From: Butyrivibrio sp.
Lineage (GTDB): Bacteria > Bacillota > Clostridia > Lachnospirales > Lachnospiraceae
NCBI GenBank assembly: GCA_024690485.1
Contig: JAILPB010000041.1
Coordinates: 1 to 54,435 of the forward strand
Length of the DNA: 54,435 nucleotides
Direction: 5' to 3'
Positions 5,285 through 50,292 of the stretch are shown in pieces. A program made the position numbers and the translations under genes. The notes under the pieces are model-generated. The model did not search any database. It was given only the letters and a program-made list of their open reading frames with translations, and was not told where the DNA came from. Within the stretch, counting starts at the first letter, position 1, and every line of letters starts with the position of its first letter.

Positions 5285-5785
5285 ATGGAATTTACTACCC
5301 TATGTTACCTTGAAAAAGACGGAAAATATCTGATGCTTCACAGAACAAAGAAGGAGAATGATGTAAATAAGGATAAGTGGATCGCCCCGGGTGGACATAT
5401 TGAGGACGGGGAAAGCCCCGAGGAGTGCGCCATCAGAGAAGTCCTTGAGGAAACAGGATATAGGGTAAAAAGTCTTAAATTCAGAGGCCTTGTGACCTTC
5501 TATTCCGAAGCCACAGTAGATAGTGATTCTTTAACAGATTATATGTGTCTTTTTACCAGCGATGATTTTGATGGAGAGGAGATTGTCTGTAACGAGGGAG
5601 AGCTTTCCTGGGTTGATAAGAACTCATTAAGAGATCTTAATTTGTGGAAAGGTGACCTGATTTTTCTGGATCTCATACGGGATCCCCAGAGGCCATTCTT
5701 CTCACTAAAGCTTACCTATCACAGGGATGAGCTCATAAGAGCGGTGCTTGATGGAAACGATATTAAAATAAATCAAGAAAAGTGA
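5285..5785 (+). CDS. NUDIX hydrolase (8-oxo-dGTP diphosphatase-like)
   Basis: Nudix box GGHIEDGESPEECAIREVLEETGY. Confidence 0.92.
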   Translation: MEFTTLCYLEKDGKYLMLHRTKKENDVNKDKWIAPGGHIEDGESPEECAIREVLEETGYRVKSLKFRGLVTFYSEATVDSDSLTDYMCLFTSDDFDGEEIVCNEGELSWVDKNSLRDLNLWKGDLIFLDLIRDPQRPFFSLKLTYHRDELIRAVLDGNDIKINQEK

Positions 5786-5825
5786 TTAAATATGTCACTA
5801 TAAAAAAGAGATATAAGTGTTAAAA

Positions 5826-5866
5826 TAAAATTCATCAAAATTGTTTGATGAATTTTATTTTTGCAT
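5826..5866 (+). terminator. Rho-independent terminator
   Basis: AAAATTCATCAAA-ATTG-TTTGATGAATTTT followed by ATTTTT. Confidence 0.8.
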
Positions 5867-5937
5867 TAATTTAGCCGATATATAAGGGGAGTAATCTTTT
5901 TGAATTGACAGAAAATAGCCTTTAAGGAGGAGATTAT

Positions 5938-7932
5938 ATGAAAAACTTTGAAAAATACAAGAAACAGTATTATATGCCGCCTACACCTACATATGAGTGG
6001 GTTAAGAAGGATTATATCGATCATCCGCCCATCTGGTGCAGCGTGGACCTTAGAGATGGAAACCAGGCCCTTATTGAACCCATGAGTCTTGATGAGAAGC
6101 TTGAGTTTTTCACTATGCTTGTTGAGCTTGGATTCAAAGAGATTGAGATCGGATTCCCTGCTGCTTCTGAGACAGAATTCGAGTTTGCACGTACCCTTAT
6201 CGACAAAAACATGATCCCTGACGACGTGACCGTTCAGGTACTGACTCAGGCCAGAGAACACATCATCAAGAGAACTTTCGAGGCCGTTAAGGGCGCTCCG
6301 AAGGCTATAATTCATCTGTACAATTCAACATCTGTTGCTCAGCGTGAGCAGGTTTTCAAGAAAAACAAGGAAGACGTTAAGCAGATAGCAGTTGAGGGTG
6401 CAAAACTTCTTGATAAACTGGCAAAGGAGACATCCGGGAACTTTTCATTCGAGTATTCTCCTGAGAGTTTCCCGGGAACAGAGGTGGACTATGCGGTTGA
6501 AGTCTGCAACGCTGTTCTTGATGTGTGGAAGCCTACAAAGGATAACAAGGTTATCATCAACATTCCCACAACTGTTGAGATTGCAATGCCTCATGTATTT
6601 GCAACTCAGGTCGAGTATATTCACCACAACTTAAAATACAGAGATGCCGTTACATTGTCTCTTCATCCCCACAACGACAGAGGCTCAGGTATAAGTGATG
6701 CTGAGCTTGGCTGTCTTGCAGGTGCTGACAGAATTGAGGGTACACTTTTTGGAAACGGTGAGAGAACCGGTAACGTAGACATTGTTACTTTGGCTATCAA
6801 TATGTATTCCCACGGCGTTGATCCAAAGCTTGATTTCAGTAATATCAACAAGATCGGTGAGGCTTACGAGAGACTTACCAGAATGCGCATATTTGAGAGA
6901 CAGCCTTACGCAGGACAGCTGGTGTTCACTGCTTTTTCAGGATCTCATCAGGATGCTATCAGCAAGGGCTTCTCCTGGCATGAAGCAGGAAAAGACAATG
7001 GAATCTGGTCTGTGCCTTATCTTCCCATCGATCCCAAGGATCTGGGCAGAGAGTACGACGGAGATGTTATCAGAATCAACTCCCAGTCAGGTAAAGGTGG
7101 CGTAAGCTACATCTTGAAGACAAATTATGGTATGATGGTACCGAAAGAGATGCAGACTGATGTAAGCTACACCATCAAGGATGTATCTGACAGGGAGCAT
7201 GCTGAACTTGCTCCCGGCCGTATTTACCAGATATTTGAGGATAAATATGTTCACAATGAGTCAGTATTTAAAGTAGCTGACGTTCATTTCAAGCAGGTAA
7301 ACGGAATACTTGCCCAGGTTACTGTTTCTCACGGCGGAAAAGAAAATGTGGTTGAGGCAAACGGTAATGGTCGTCTTGATGCGGTAAGTAATGCATTTAA
7401 GCAGTACTTTGGAATAAGCTACGAGCTCTCTGTTTACGAGGAGCACGCACTTAGCCGCGGTTCATCATCAAAGGCATGTACTTATGTAGGCATTACCTGT
7501 GACGGCAAGAAGTACTGGGGAGTTGGAATCGATGAGGATATCATCAGATCCTCCATAAATGCCCTTACTGTGGCTGTTAACCAGCTTGATGCAGTAAAAG
7601 CAAGTACAGATGCCAAAGATGAACGAATTAGTGCTATACTTAATTACATCCAGGAAAATTATTTAACGGTTACGCTTGATGATCTTTCCAAAGAGTTTTA
7701 TCTTTCGAAGCCATATTTGTCCAAGTATATTAAGGAAAAGTCCGGAGTTACTTTCGGAGAAAACGTTAAAAAGATAAGGCTTAAGAAGGCAAGCATTCTT
7801 CTTAAGAACGGCAACATGAAGGTAGAGAGAGTGGCAGAGGCTGCAGGCTATCAGAATGTTGAGCATTTTAACAGACTTTTCAAGAAAAAATACGGTATGA
7901 CACCGGTACAGTATCGCAGCAGCAGCCGCTGA
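5938..7932 (+). CDS. leuA: 2-isopropylmalate synthase (LeuA) with C-terminal AraC-type HTH domain
   Basis: DRE-TIM motif [14 protein letters not shown], HxHNDRG, LeuA allosteric dimer domain, then AraC HTH (~7621-7929: [24 protein letters not shown]...[29 protein letters not shown]). Confidence 0.95.
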
Positions 7933-44501: not shown

Positions 44502-44558
44502 AAATTCAAGCGAAAGTGTGAAATATATTTTCAATATGATTGTTAATTAAATAAAATG

Positions 44559-44638
44559 ATTCAGGGCAAAGCTATCGCAAGGTAGTGACGCAAAGCTAAA
44601 AGGGTCTGTCGTATGTACAGATAGCCAGCTGCCTGAGC
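44559..44638 (+). ncRNA. Cyclic di-GMP-I (GEMM-I) riboswitch aptamer
   Basis: TTCAGGGCAAAGCTATC-GCAA-GGTAGTGACGCAAAGCTAAAAGGGTCTGT...ACAGATAGCCAGCTGCCTGA: conserved GGGCAAA, GNRA loop, GACGCAAAGC, AGCC..GCTGCC, and P1 TCAGG/CCTGA. Confidence 0.93.
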
Positions 44639-44686
44639 TTTTATTGATTTGTTGAAGCTCAGAAGAATTCACTAATGTAACTATGT

Positions 44687-44719
44687 CCTGTTTGAAAATT
44701 ATTCGAACAGGGCTTTTTT
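44687..44719 (+). terminator. Rho-independent terminator between aptamer and coding sequence (expression platform)
   Basis: CCTGTTTGAA-AATTA-TTCGAACAGG followed by GCTTTTTTC. Confidence 0.88.
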
Positions 44720-44799
44720 CTGCAAGTTATACCGGTTTTATTTTTTCATCAATGCAGAGAGTTTCCGTAGTATTGAGTTTTTTGAAAGAGGAACCTGGT

Positions 44800-47700
44800 A
44801 TGGCGAGAAGGAATAATATGCGCTTTAGCGCGGAGGAATTTGTAAAAAGTCACGAATTTGCCAGACGCTGGATATCTGTAATGATTGTAATTGCCTTACT
44901 TATAGGAGGCGTTACTTTGATTGCCATGAAGAAGGCTGCATCAGCTGTTACTGAAGACGGTGCTGATGAGATCGGTATGGTCCTTGATGCAGAAGAAGGC
45001 GAGGATGAAGTTACTTTTGAAGATTTCTATGGTGAATCAGCAGACATGGAAGATCAGGAAGATTCTGAAGCTGCAGATGGCTCTGAAGAAGACAGTGATA
45101 ATTCAGATGAAGAAGTATCAGATGAAGAAGTATCAGATGAGACAGAGTATGCTGAAAGCTCTGACGAAGATATTGCATCTGATGACACTGATAGCGATGA
45201 AGATATCCAGAGTAGTGACTCTGATAATGAAGCCACAGATGCGGCTGATATAGATGAGCAGAATACTGATAGCAAGTTAGATGCTGAAGAAACTGAAGAT
45301 ACAGATGTAGAGGATGAACTTACAAAAGATGTGGTTCTTACAGTCTCCTACATTGATGAGGATGAAAATCTCATTCTCGATTCCGATGGAGTTCCTTATG
45401 CTGATGAGAAGGAGATCAACCTTAGTGACAGCATGGAATTCGAAAAAGATGCCCGCAAAATAGAAGGGTATACATTTAAGAAGGCTTACTTTGAGAAAAC
45501 AGACTCAGACCGGGGTGATTCCGAGAAGCTGGATATTACCGGTATAGCAGTAAGGCTCTATACCGGGTCCGACGACTCTGAGTTTAAATATTATGAAGTG
45601 AATATAAATGAGGAAGAGACTCTTGATATAAAAGAGGATACGCAGCTTTTCTTTGTGTATGAAGCAGCCTGGGAAACTGCAGATGATACCAAAGAGGGAA
45701 CGGACAATGATAAGAAGCTTGCAGGATCCGATAAAAACTCTTCCAAAGATGTGCCTGAGTCTGTTGATCTTTCTAAATTTGTTACAGAGACTGTAATTGA
45801 GAGAATGAATGACAAGGGTGAGTGGGAGGTAATCTCCGAAGCCGATATCAAAGAAGGCGATCACCTGAGAATAACTGTCAATTACGTTCTGTCTAAAGAA
45901 GCTGCCGCAAGTGATGATATTCACTTTGACATTCCGGAGCAATACGGAACAGCTTTTTCATCAGAATCAGACCTTGATGACGGAAATGGAAGTTACGAGG
46001 TAACTGACGACAATCAGATTAAGATCCAATATAATGATGATTTTAAGAAAAAACTTTCAGATGATGAAAGCAGCACTGACAAAGACAGCAGTGCTGCAGA
46101 TTCTTCTGCTTCAATAAATGTGTCTAAAAGCAAAAAGCCGTCTATTCTAAGTTCTGTTTCGGGACTTAAGTATATGGGCGGGCTTTTTGATGGTTTCGCA
46201 ATTAAAGCGCATGCAGCCAGAAATGGTAATATAACCGGAAGCGTTACAACAGAGACAGTGGTTTTATCTGATAAGGCAAAAAAAGGAGAGATGACCATTG
46301 TCGATGTTTCAGTTAAGAAGAATCCTGAGAGAGACTATTCAAGCCAGTCAGCTCCATATAAGGGTGGAACAGAGATAAGGTATGGCGACGAGATAAACAA
46401 TGGCGACATGCTTTATTTTACCCTTAGTTATAAGCTTGATATCGGCACACTTAACGAGTCACGAAAATCTGTTAAGTATTCTCTTAAGGATCACAAGATT
46501 ACTCCAATTAACGCTGTAGATGGAATCGTATACGACAATTCATATACTGCAGTTGGTACATTTTCAATATCCGGCGACGGCGTTGTAACCTTTGATTTCT
46601 ATGATGATTTTGTGGAAAAGAATGCTAAGCACGAAGCTTACGGAAACTTCTATTTTCTTGCACAGGCTTCCGCTTCGTCAAATTCTGAAAAGGTTGAAAA
46701 AATCTACGATTTTGGCGACAACGTAACATTTAAGGTTATTATCAACAACGTAAAGGGAAGCGACCTGTCCATTCAGAAGCAGCAGAGCTATGATTCATCA
46801 AAAGGATACATGTATTATGCCATTACTTTGTCCAGCGTAAATGGTACAAAGACAGATATTGTAATTGACGATGTTATCAAGGTGTTCAACGCTACGATGA
46901 CAGATACTACTGAGAATTCATGGCTTACAAGTCTTTTTACTTTTAACAATGTAAAAGGCGCCAGCATTTTCAAAGGAGATTCTCGGAATCCTACATATCT
47001 GACATGGAATCAGTTCAAGGTAAGTAATAGCGGAAGCAAGACAACTATTACTTTGCCTAAGCTTAACGCAAATGAGAAGTATACTCTTCAGTATTACTTT
47101 GAGGTTCCGGAGCAGGTAGCACTTTCTTCTGCAGGAATCAGGCTTAATAACTCAGCTAATGCAAAGTATGACAACGGTAAGAACGTTTCTGCTAATGTTG
47201 ACTGGAGTTTTGGCGGAGTACCTAAGATCAGTAAGGCAGGTGAAGCTGACAGGAATAGTTACACAGTAACCTGGAGAATCACCCTTAACGAAGATCATAA
47301 GAACTTAAAGGGATATACCCTCAAGGATAATTTTGTAACACTGCTTGGGTATCAGTACACCCAAAAGAAAACACCTTACAAAGGAGATATGTGGGTTGAG
47401 AGCAGAGAGCAGTATGCAGGAAAAGGTTCCACACTTTCTCTTGGAAGTAAGATAACACTTGGTGGAAACGGATACACATTTACAAAAGATGATTATACAA
47501 AATATGTATTTGTTTATCAGGTAAGCTATAAGCCTTCTGATGTAATCTATCAGAACTGGCTTGTTAATGAAGCTAATATCAACGATGGCGTAAACAACAA
47601 TAGCACTACGGGATACGCATGGGCCGGAACTGGCAACTATGTGGAAAAAGAAGCCACCGGAATAAACACAATAGATAGTGATAAAGCAAAGGTTCACTGG

Positions 47701-50292
47701 AAGCTTACTCTTAAGGCACCTATAAAGAGAACAGATGGAGCTAATAATTCCGAGTACTTCATGCTCTATGAGGTTCTTGAGAATGCTCAGGTGTTTACCA
47801 GAGAGGATGTTGAATCAGTAAAAACCGCCTTTAGGAATGCCTTTGGAAATGCTTTCGAGGTACAGGCTAAGAATAACTCCAATCAGGGAAGTGTTAACGG
47901 ATGGAGAAGACTTGAGATCAAGATCTTCACTGATGTGCAGACAAATGTCACATTGGAGTTTACATCCACAGCATATATTGCTGAGGGAACAAAGAAGACT
48001 TCTTTTAAGAATAAGGCTTTTGTATATAACAGTAGTAATATTGCAGAGGCTACTCAGGATTTCGAAAAGATTTCTATTGAGAAGTTTGACGGAAATAACA
48101 ATGCAGGAGACACTTCATACGAGTATATGTCTGATACTTTATACAAATCAGGAATACTTTCATGGGTGGTTAAAGCTAATATACCTGCAAATTACGAAGA
48201 AAACGGCAACGACCTTATTTATATCGTGGATACTCTTCCGGAGGATGTGAGCCTTATTAAAAACGGCGAGTATTCCGGAAATGCCTTAAACGGCCTTGAA
48301 GTTGCCGGAGATAACGGATTTAAAAACGCAGCAGCCTTTGGCGATGGAAACTGTAACTTAAAGTTTAACAACGTTAATTACACGAAAACTGTTGAGAAAA
48401 ATAAGATAATCATTTCCTTCAAGGCAAGCGAGGCTAAGGGACAGACTGTATACTTCAGAGTTCGTGCAAAGATAAAGGATGGCTACTTTACGGAAGAAAC
48501 TGTGACAGGAGAGTTTACAAACTCCGTAATGATCAGCAATAACGGTGAGACACCTCTTGACAGTAGCAGCCAGAAGCAGACAATTACCAATACTTCTCAT
48601 GCTATAACTAAGGATGGAAAAAACGTTGAGAACTCACTTAATACAGTTGAGTACGTGGTAGAGGTCAATCCTAATCATGCAGATCTCTTAAAAGAAGGCG
48701 ACACCATAAGACTTACAGATACACTTACTGCAAGTTCTACAGCTGATTTCACTGTAACGCTTGTAACCGGATCTGTGGAAGTTTACGAAGTGTCTGATGA
48801 CGGCACTGAGACTCCGCTTCCTATCAATAGATATACATGTTCATCTTCGGTTTATGCTGCAGAGACAGGAGCGTATCCATATCATTGGAACTATGCGACT
48901 CTTGAGATGAATCTACCTGATGAAATGCATCTTAGAATCAAGTACAGATATCAGTTTGAAGGAACCGCTGATCAGTACATAAGTGCTAATAACAAGGCAA
49001 CCCTCGAAGGAATTGTTGTTTCTAACAACTCTGCAGAGGATAGCAAACAGGTTAAGATTCAGGAAGCAGGAGCTAAGGCGTTTATCAAAGGAATTAACCT
49101 TTATAAGGTGGATAATGATAATCACAATAATTATCTGTCCGGAGCCAAGTTCTCGCTTCATGCATATGACAAGAACAGGGGAACTTTTGTAGCTGTACCT
49201 GCAAATACAGAGGACGGTTTCTATACAACAAACAGTGCAGGATATGTTCCGATAAACAACCTTACCTACAATCTGGCATACAAGCTGGTTGAGGAAGTTG
49301 CTCCCGATGGATACATAAAGAGAGAGACACCTTACTACTTCTGCATTGCATCAACGGATACCGGAAGATATCCGAGGTTGTGCCCTGAAAACTTCTTTAC
49401 AGAACTTAACGGAGAAGAAATAACAGCCGGTGGATCTGTATTTATCGGAAACGATAAGGCAACCACATCCATAGTTGTGGAAAAAAAGTGGGAGAATGAA
49501 GATTCAACAACAAAGCCCAGATTCATAACTGTTAAAGTGGGACGTAGACTTGGCGCAGAGCAGAGTGTAGATAGTTCAAGTTATTACACTGTTAATATAG
49601 ACAGAAGAGATGGCACCAATAGTATAACCCAGTACATAGGATTTCCTTCTGTAAGGAGTGGCTCAACACTTACCTTTAGCTTCTATGTTGACTACTCAAA
49701 TGTGTATAACAAGCTTGCACCGGAGATAAAGATAAACGGCAATACCATAGATTACTCATCAGAGCTTAAGGCCGGAAGTGTTCAGGTGATAACCAAAACT
49801 GTGACAATAAACAGTGATACCAAGATAACTATCACAGATCCCTGGGGAATCAATGATGCTAATAAGTATCCTGCCGAGGCTCATGTGAAGGCACCTCAGT
49901 CAAGTTCAGATGGTAATCAGATAGCTATCGAAGAGAATAACTATAAAGAAATAACCATTACTGAAGATGATGATTGGGTTAGTGAAGTACCTAATCTTGA
50001 AAGATATTATACTGATAAGAATTCCGGAAAGAAGTACATGTGGAACTACTATGTATCTGAAGTTCAGAACGTGTATTACACAGCGAGCTATTCGGAAAAC
50101 AACAAGACAGGCATAGGGTCAGGTACGATTACAATTACCAACTCAAGAAATAAAGTGCAGCCTTATGAGCTTCCTTCCACAGGTGGCACAGGCGAATTGA
50201 TGTATGTGGTGATGGGAATGACGATGATGTTAATTGGCTTAATGTTAAGATTGCACATCGGTCGAAAAATTCGAAAAACTGACAACAACTGA
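44800..50292 (+). CDS. Giant LPXTG-anchored surface protein (acidic Ser/Asp/Glu stalk, adhesin-like repeats, CnaB/SpaA-like domain)
   Basis: Extended signal peptide ARRWISVMIVIALLIGGVTLIAMKKAASA; CnaB/SpaA-like GINLYKVDNDNHNNYLSGAKFSLHAYD...ELVEEVAPDGY-type region (~49080-49365); C-terminal LPSTGG (50170-50184) plus TM and RKIRK tail. Confidence 0.92.
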   Translation: MARRNNMRFSAEEFVKSHEFARRWISVMIVIALLIGGVTLIAMKKAASAVTEDGADEIGMVLDAEEGEDEVTFEDFYGESADMEDQEDSEAADGSEEDSDNSDEEVSDEEVSDETEYAESSDEDIASDDTDSDEDIQSSDSDNEATDAADIDEQNTDSKLDAEETEDTDVEDELTKDVVLTVSYIDEDENLILDSDGVPYADEKEINLSDSMEFEKDARKIEGYTFKKAYFEKTDSDRGDSEKLDITGIAVRLYTGSDDSEFKYYEVNINEEETLDIKEDTQLFFVYEAAWETADDTKEGTDNDKKLAGSDKNSSKDVPESVDLSKFVTETVIERMNDKGEWEVISEADIKEGDHLRITVNYVLSKEAAASDDIHFDIPEQYGTAFSSESDLDDGNGSYEVTDDNQIKIQYNDDFKKKLSDDESSTDKDSSAADSSASINVSKSKKPSILSSVSGLKYMGGLFDGFAIKAHAARNGNITGSVTTETVVLSDKAKKGEMTIVDVSVKKNPERDYSSQSAPYKGGTEIRYGDEINNGDMLYFTLSYKLDIGTLNESRKSVKYSLKDHKITPINAVDGIVYDNSYTAVGTFSISGDGVVTFDFYDDFVEKNAKHEAYGNFYFLAQASASSNSEKVEKIYDFGDNVTFKVIINNVKGSDLSIQKQQSYDSSKGYMYYAITLSSVNGTKTDIVIDDVIKVFNATMTDTTENSWLTSLFTFNNVKGASIFKGDSRNPTYLTWNQFKVSNSGSKTTITLPKLNANEKYTLQYYFEVPEQVALSSAGIRLNNSANAKYDNGKNVSANVDWSFGGVPKISKAGEADRNSYTVTWRITLNEDHKNLKGYTLKDNFVTLLGYQYTQKKTPYKGDMWVESREQYAGKGSTLSLGSKITLGGNGYTFTKDDYTKYVFVYQVSYKPSDVIYQNWLVNEANINDGVNNNSTTGYAWAGTGNYVEKEATGINTIDSDKAKVHWKLTLKAPIKRTDGANNSEYFMLYEVLENAQVFTREDVESVKTAFRNAFGNAFEVQAKNNSNQGSVNGWRRLEIKIFTDVQTNVTLEFTSTAYIAEGTKKTSFKNKAFVYNSSNIAEATQDFEKISIEKFDGNNNAGDTSYEYMSDTLYKSGILSWVVKANIPANYEENGNDLIYIVDTLPEDVSLIKNGEYSGNALNGLEVAGDNGFKNAAAFGDGNCNLKFNNVNYTKTVEKNKIIISFKASEAKGQTVYFRVRAKIKDGYFTEETVTGEFTNSVMISNNGETPLDSSSQKQTITNTSHAITKDGKNVENSLNTVEYVVEVNPNHADLLKEGDTIRLTDTLTASSTADFTVTLVTGSVEVYEVSDDGTETPLPINRYTCSSSVYAAETGAYPYHWNYATLEMNLPDEMHLRIKYRYQFEGTADQYISANNKATLEGIVVSNNSAEDSKQVKIQEAGAKAFIKGINLYKVDNDNHNNYLSGAKFSLHAYDKNRGTFVAVPANTEDGFYTTNSAGYVPINNLTYNLAYKLVEEVAPDGYIKRETPYYFCIASTDTGRYPRLCPENFFTELNGEEITAGGSVFIGNDKATTSIVVEKKWENEDSTTKPRFITVKVGRRLGAEQSVDSSSYYTVNIDRRDGTNSITQYIGFPSVRSGSTLTFSFYVDYSNVYNKLAPEIKINGNTIDYSSELKAGSVQVITKTVTINSDTKITITDPWGINDANKYPAEAHVKAPQSSSDGNQIAIEENNYKEITITEDDDWVSEVPNLERYYTDKNSGKKYMWNYYVSEVQNVYYTASYSENNKTGIGSGTITITNSRNKVQPYELPSTGGTGELMYVVMGMTMMLIGLMLRLHIGRKIRKTDNN
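45106..45135 (+). repeat. Perfect 15-bp tandem duplication in stalk region
   Basis: GATGAAGAAGTATCA x2. Confidence 0.95.

Follow-up and report, generated by a model that had tools for sequence, protein, structure and literature searches.

The 54,435-nucleotide stretch of a Butyrivibrio sp. contig analysed here (hereafter the window) carries a gene in which 2-isopropylmalate synthase (IPMS, LeuA) runs into an AraC-type DNA-binding domain. This raises the question of whether a leucine biosynthetic enzyme also acts as a transcription factor and, if so, on which genes and in response to which signal. Our analyses lead us to propose that the fusion gene probably encodes an IPMS that doubles as an autogenous, leucine-pathway-specific AraC-type transcription factor, an activator released by leucine.

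An earlier note on this DNA had described an uninterrupted ORF that encodes the LeuA barrel and the allosteric domain and ends in a full AraC module with two HTH motifs. All of this was borne out: the gene is one intact frame, the five Pfam domain matches (Table 1) all exceed their gathering cut-offs, and the domain boundaries first drawn are correct within a few residues according to Pfam and AlphaFold2. The NCBIfam model PRK03739 (LeuA) matches residues 4-549 of the fusion protein with 807 bits. In the PDB, the nearest relative of the protein is LeuA of M. tuberculosis (MtLeuA), and AraC-type modules separately match residues 560-662. AlphaFold2, run with 25 fused sequences as input (mean pLDDT 75.8), predicted an AraC-type module with seven helices at residues 562-663, the pLDDT of this block being mostly 76-90, preceded by a hinge of low confidence at 557-560; the model is also poor over residues 321-385. 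The top fold match of the model is leucine-bound MtLeuA (3FIG), a match that leaves the HTH out of the test.

Table 1. Positions of the leuA-araC gene, its encoded domains and its upstream elements in the window
Feature	Position	Strand	Basis and remarks
leuA-araC fusion gene	5938..7932	+	664 aa, stop included; ORF, Pfam, NCBIfam, ortholog set
IPMS catalytic (alpha/beta)8 barrel, residues 32-307	6031..6858	+	Pfam HMGL-like, 2.5e-69; catalytic residues invariant
IPMS_D2 post-catalytic domain, residues 328-394	6919..7119	+	Pfam, 1.6e-31; contains Y361
LeuA allosteric (leucine-binding, dimer) domain, residues 424-550	7207..7587	+	Pfam LeuA_dimer, 3.1e-25; pocket residues
Variable hinge, residues 551-560	7588..7617	+	Low conservation; pLDDT <50 at 557-560
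AraC/XylS-type two-HTH DNA-binding domain, residues 561-662	7618..7923	+	Pfam HTH_18 (residues 583-661, 7.3e-19) and HTH_AraC (residues 623-660, 2.6e-15), conservation, AlphaFold2
HTH1 predicted recognition helix, residues 591-602	7708..7743	+	Near-invariant; AlphaFold2 helix
HTH2 predicted recognition helix, residues 641-652	7858..7893	+	Near-invariant; AlphaFold2 helix
Operator O1	5762..5799	+	46.9 bits; overlaps final codons of upstream NUDIX gene
Extended -10	5818..5826	+	TG 5818-5819, hexamer TAAAAT 5821-5826; fixed distance from operator
Perfect 18-bp AT-rich inverted repeat, with ATCAAA/TTTGAT	5822..5861	.	Read from sequence; spans predicted transcription start

The fusion is not peculiar to this contig. 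Among 299 Lachnospiraceae genomes, nearly every one from a different genus, 68 encode the full-length fusion at 64-88% identity, one further fusion (G163) is cut by a contig end, and a scan of GTDB genomes, which placed the window with Butyrivibrio, detected the fusion in many named assemblies, including those of cultured Sporomusa species. At two loci (L148 of G061 and L156 of G078) a stop codon ends leuA at the hinge and an intact HTH lies directly downstream in another frame, with the operator described below kept; this may reflect a recent frameshift, a sequencing error, or a split or recoded gene. Although these two loci indicate that the junction can be broken, we dismiss an assembly artefact, an internal frameshift or chance read-through into an adjacent regulator gene as wholly implausible, because full-length fusions recur in the 68 sampled genomes, in cultured strains and in named assemblies, with sequence conserved on either side of the junction. 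Two of the refuting conditions named in the earlier note, that the fusion is an artefact or is absent from relatives, thus fail, since it recurs across dozens of genera.

Outside the Lachnospiraceae, only three genomes in a sample of 391 Clostridia (G509, G373 and G511) were found to carry the fusion. Two of these additionally contain an unfused LeuA, and the Sporomusa fused proteins are nested inside the Lachnospiraceae in a tree of the enzyme part, which together suggest that the fusion spread by horizontal transfer. On the best enzyme-part tree the fused or unfused state changes about eight times, at least three of these changes falling on well-supported branches. The loci of cultured Sporomusa strains (L101, L102 and L104) combine the fusion, the operator and a T-box leader; enzyme, HTH and operator were probably transferred horizontally together.

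Catalytic residues and most of the leucine pocket are retained. R39, D40, E176, H243, H245, N279, H337 and Y361 are invariant in 89 of 89 fused proteins and are equivalent to the catalytic and communication residues R80, D81, E218, H285, H287, N321, H379 and Y410 of the M. tuberculosis enzyme. The last of these, aligned with Y361, is required for leucine feedback (PMC2704214). The leucine pocket of MtLeuA was reported to consist of G531, G533, L535, A536, V551, Y554, A558, A565 and A567 (PMC2704214); in the fusion protein G476, G478, L480, Y500 and A513 are kept and L497 is a conservative replacement. Two pocket residues differ (A536 to D481 and A565 to S511), so that use of the pocket for leucine by the fused enzyme is probable rather than certain. 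The same two differences occur in most unfused enzymes, and at the leucine-site positions the fused proteins carry residues identical to those of unfused Lachnospiraceae enzymes. The mean majority-residue frequency is 0.88 in the barrel, 0.77 in the allosteric domain, 0.62 in the linker and 0.80 in the HTH domain, which is therefore about as conserved as the allosteric domain. Judging from this conservation, both halves of the protein are under constraint. Loss of HTH-critical residues, named in the earlier note among the findings that would refute its reading, was not observed: both recognition helices are near-invariant, and an invariant DNA target is consequently predicted.

A candidate for such a target lies upstream of the fused genes, in the form of a conserved 38-bp sequence (consensus ATTAAAATAnATCAAnnAAAnTGATTAAATTTnTCACT) composed of a direct repeat, ATTAAA-N4/5-TCA twice, with a period of 22-23 bp. 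The half-sites of O1, ATTAAAATAAATCAA (5762-5776) and ATTAAATATGTCAC (5785-5798), are 23 bp apart. After O1, the best scores given by the motif matrix in the 54-kb window are -0.3 on the + strand and 0.1 on the - strand, and a pattern search returned O1 as the sole match in the searched genome. Considering only loci with enough upstream sequence, and counting G061, G078 and G163 as fused, an operator above 10 bits was found at 59 of the 70 fused loci versus none of the 37 unfused leuA loci (Fisher 3e-19, a p value not to be read literally, the rows being related). Shuffled upstream regions reached at most 7.3 bits. The operator is oriented as the gene in 58 of the 59 cases and was detected at 30 of the 38 fused loci outside the set used to build the matrix. 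With a strict pattern, 39 of the 299 genomes matched, once each, and every one of them has the HTH either fused or out of frame; all but one of these 39 sites are upstream of the gene in question. A reversed-pattern control gave 2 matches. G061 and G078 had appeared to be unfused operator carriers and hence counter-examples, a status rejected on account of the intact out-of-frame HTH just downstream.

The remaining 11 of the 70 fused loci lack a site above 10 bits. At several fused loci an intervening T-box leader pushes the operator beyond the first 400 bp, where it seemed to be missing, and a search extended to 900 bp recovered most of these sites. Some fused genes (L193, L209, L220 and L222) are preceded by no operator that could be recognised and by no T-box core; the target of their proteins may have diverged. 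An independent-pair test showed the link between operator and fusion to be clustered on the tree, with only three well-supported contrasts, which agree where they differ and are too few for significance.

Many further AraC-type HTH proteins are encoded in the genome, and one of them might bind the operator, leaving the fused HTH with a merely structural or residual role. We regard this as very improbable given that the operator goes together with the fused HTH, moves with it into other families and persists at both loci with an out-of-frame HTH, and that the recognition helices are near-invariant. The protein is highly likely to be an IPMS that binds this operator.

The promoter geometry bears on the sense of regulation. 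Anchoring 48 loci on the motif revealed an extended -10 (TRTGnTAnnAT) at a single fixed distance from the operator. This element is found at offset 54-56 in 51 of 54 loci; for its hexamer, 44 of 49 loci agree on offset 58. Sporomusa and the three other-family genomes also carry the operator, with the -10 at the same offset in 6 of 6. The -35 position holds a hexamer match of at best 4/6, such a weak -35 being present in some loci, and a consensus scan of positions 5700-5960 of the window returned no sigma70 -35/-10 pair. Transcription of leuA-araC is predicted to start at about 5833, and the proximal half-site of the operator adjoins the -35 position. The region around -35 is where activators of the AraC family usually bind, and most members of this family are activators (PMC6018408); the RhaS site either overlaps the -35 by 4 bp or stops 1 bp short of it on the upstream side (PMC9429829). 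The layout resembles that of an AraC-type activator site, and the rigid spacing between operator and -10 without a good -35 argues for activation. The fusion protein would likely activate.

Additional elements were detected around the start. A weaker second site is located 63 bp downstream of the operator in Butyrivibrio and 73-74 bp downstream in another clade, near the transcription start, and could serve in autorepression or looping. The inverted repeat of the window, with arms AAAATAAAATTCATCAAA and TTTGATGAATTTTATTTT, could be a second operator, a hairpin in the leader or the NUDIX gene's terminator, and similar hairpins occupy the equivalent place in some close relatives (e.g., L042). 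No Rfam match was obtained in the leader near leuA-araC. Elsewhere in the window, a c-di-GMP-I riboswitch (44555-44636) lies directly 5' of a large surface-protein-like ORF (1869 aa, 44683-50292), and a SAM riboswitch (S box; 1836-1923, - strand), close to the left end of the window, precedes an ORF of 160 aa (1279-1761).

The position of the operator next to -35 and the overlap of second sites with the transcription start would also suit an autorepressor, in which leucine-bound LeuA-AraC covers the promoter and silences its own gene, much as the self-repressing trigger enzyme PutA does for the put genes (PMC8249747). The operator/-10 spacing, fixed across genera with no good -35, the lack of a consensus promoter in the window and the prevalence of activators in the AraC family (PMC6018408) speak against this arrangement, which we consider unlikely. 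Activation by the fusion protein remains our preferred reading.

Strong operator sites are confined to two places: upstream of the fused leuA and, for roughly two thirds of the Butyrivibrio covered, upstream of leuC. Of 30 leuC loci taken from across Butyrivibrio, 19 possess an operator of 20-36 bits, and all 19 (L232, L327, L330, L332, L333, L335, L338, L340, L341, L343, L346-L353 and L355) have the extended -10 at a spacing of 58-60, nearly as at leuA. The upstream regions of leuC, ilvC and ilvD in 25 fused genomes contain no operator, except that of leuC in Butyrivibrio G207. The leuC and ilv promoters of the window's own sub-clade are likewise without a site, and leuC-leuD of G000 sits in an ilv-leu cluster devoid of one. 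The regulon therefore varies within the genus Butyrivibrio, with a leuC site in one part and none in the sub-clade of the window, and the predicted regulon is leuA-araC alone or leuA-araC together with leuC-leuD. We reject a broad leucine/isoleucine/valine regulon, the ilvC and ilvD promoters of the 25 fused genomes having no site. The conserved upstream motif and the accompanying leucine genes that the earlier note had proposed to look for are thus both present. Transcriptional control by the fusion protein is strongly supported in silico by the operator-promoter module before the fused gene and before leuC in Butyrivibrio, and this part of the trigger-enzyme idea put forward in that note gains support.

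From these observations we infer operator binding by the fusion protein, activation rather than repression, and leucine as the effector, the last because the leucine pocket is intact and the targets lie only in the leucine pathway. Leucine is the probable signal. A self-regulating IPMS could instead sense a substrate or product (2-ketoisovalerate, acetyl-CoA or 2-isopropylmalate) through its catalytic barrel: the barrel and active site are fully conserved, leuC is a target in Butyrivibrio and the LeuC enzyme uses isopropylmalate, and 2-isopropylmalate is the known signal of yeast Leu3. We nevertheless find this improbable, as the leucine allosteric domain is kept and directly adjoins the AraC module. 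The enzyme would probably measure leucine and set the activity of its own gene.

In mechanistic terms, the dimeric enzyme would offer two C-terminal AraC modules to the two half-sites of the direct repeat and, bound next to the -35 position of the leuA-araC promoter on its upstream side, would recruit RNA polymerase. When leucine is low, the protein would make isopropylmalate and activate its own gene; when leucine is high, the allosteric domain, placed immediately before the AraC module, would be filled and catalysis inhibited, while the AraC modules would be repositioned or released and activation would end. In many Butyrivibrio, albeit not in the sub-clade of the window, the operator would also drive leuC-leuD. 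Over-production may be curbed by the second, weaker site beyond the transcription start.

The fused genes also differ from unfused ones in their leaders. A T-box core was found at 28 of 37 unfused leuA loci versus 11 of 70 fused loci, several being Rfam-confirmed (RF00230). Nine scored fused loci, in addition to Sporomusa, have both T-box and operator, the operator being located 5' of the T-box leader. The likeliest order of events is that the protein switch first joined the T-box and later often displaced it. The T-box leader presumably performs the same task on leuA, albeit as an RNA-based, tRNA-sensing device unlike a protein switch. On balance, we favour a single leucine-binding event controlling both catalysis and leucine-pathway transcription, in a switch that replaces or supplements the leuA T-box in Lachnospiraceae and passes from lineage to lineage with its operator.

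The fusion protein combines features of several known systems. With MtLeuA (PDB 1SR9, 3FIG), which is of the PRK03739 type, it shares the three enzyme domains (barrel, post-catalytic, allosteric), every catalytic residue tested and most leucine-site residues, but MtLeuA stops after the allosteric domain whereas the fusion protein continues via a short hinge into the AraC module. With AraC and RhaS it shares the two-HTH module, direct half-sites about two helical turns apart adjoining -35 and a possible distal second site; their effector/dimer domain is a cupin, while here it would be an entire IPMS and the regulator would be the regulated enzyme itself. Ada, a DNA repair methyltransferase with an AraC-type HTH, activates its own gene in response to its own methylation. 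It likewise joins an enzyme to an AraC-type HTH, but the fusion protein would be an amino-acid feedback enzyme rather than a methylation-responsive one. The trigger enzymes PutA, BirA and NadR are also enzymes carrying a DNA-binding domain, and the single-target, self-controlling PutA is paralleled by the very small own-pathway regulon predicted here (PMC8249747). The fusion protein differs from these three in its enzyme, in its AraC-type domain and probably in being an activator rather than a repressor, and it places a biosynthetic feedback domain where AraC proteins hold their effector domain. Trigger enzymes with a DNA-binding domain are thus known, while the LeuA-AraC fusion is apparently undescribed within the open PMC literature, where we found no report of an IPMS with an AraC domain; annotation databases will show the architecture.

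The locus provides a defined 38-bp operator and promoter for test. If our reading is correct, it also offers a small leucine-responsive module that synthetic biology might put to use, and a clear instance of a protein switch that has taken over from a T-box riboregulator. Rumen and gut Lachnospiraceae, among which the fusion is widespread, would then possess a natural one-component circuit: the committed enzyme of an amino-acid pathway would catalyse its reaction, sense leucine and control transcription, and deletion of leuA in such bacteria would take away a regulator as well as an enzyme.
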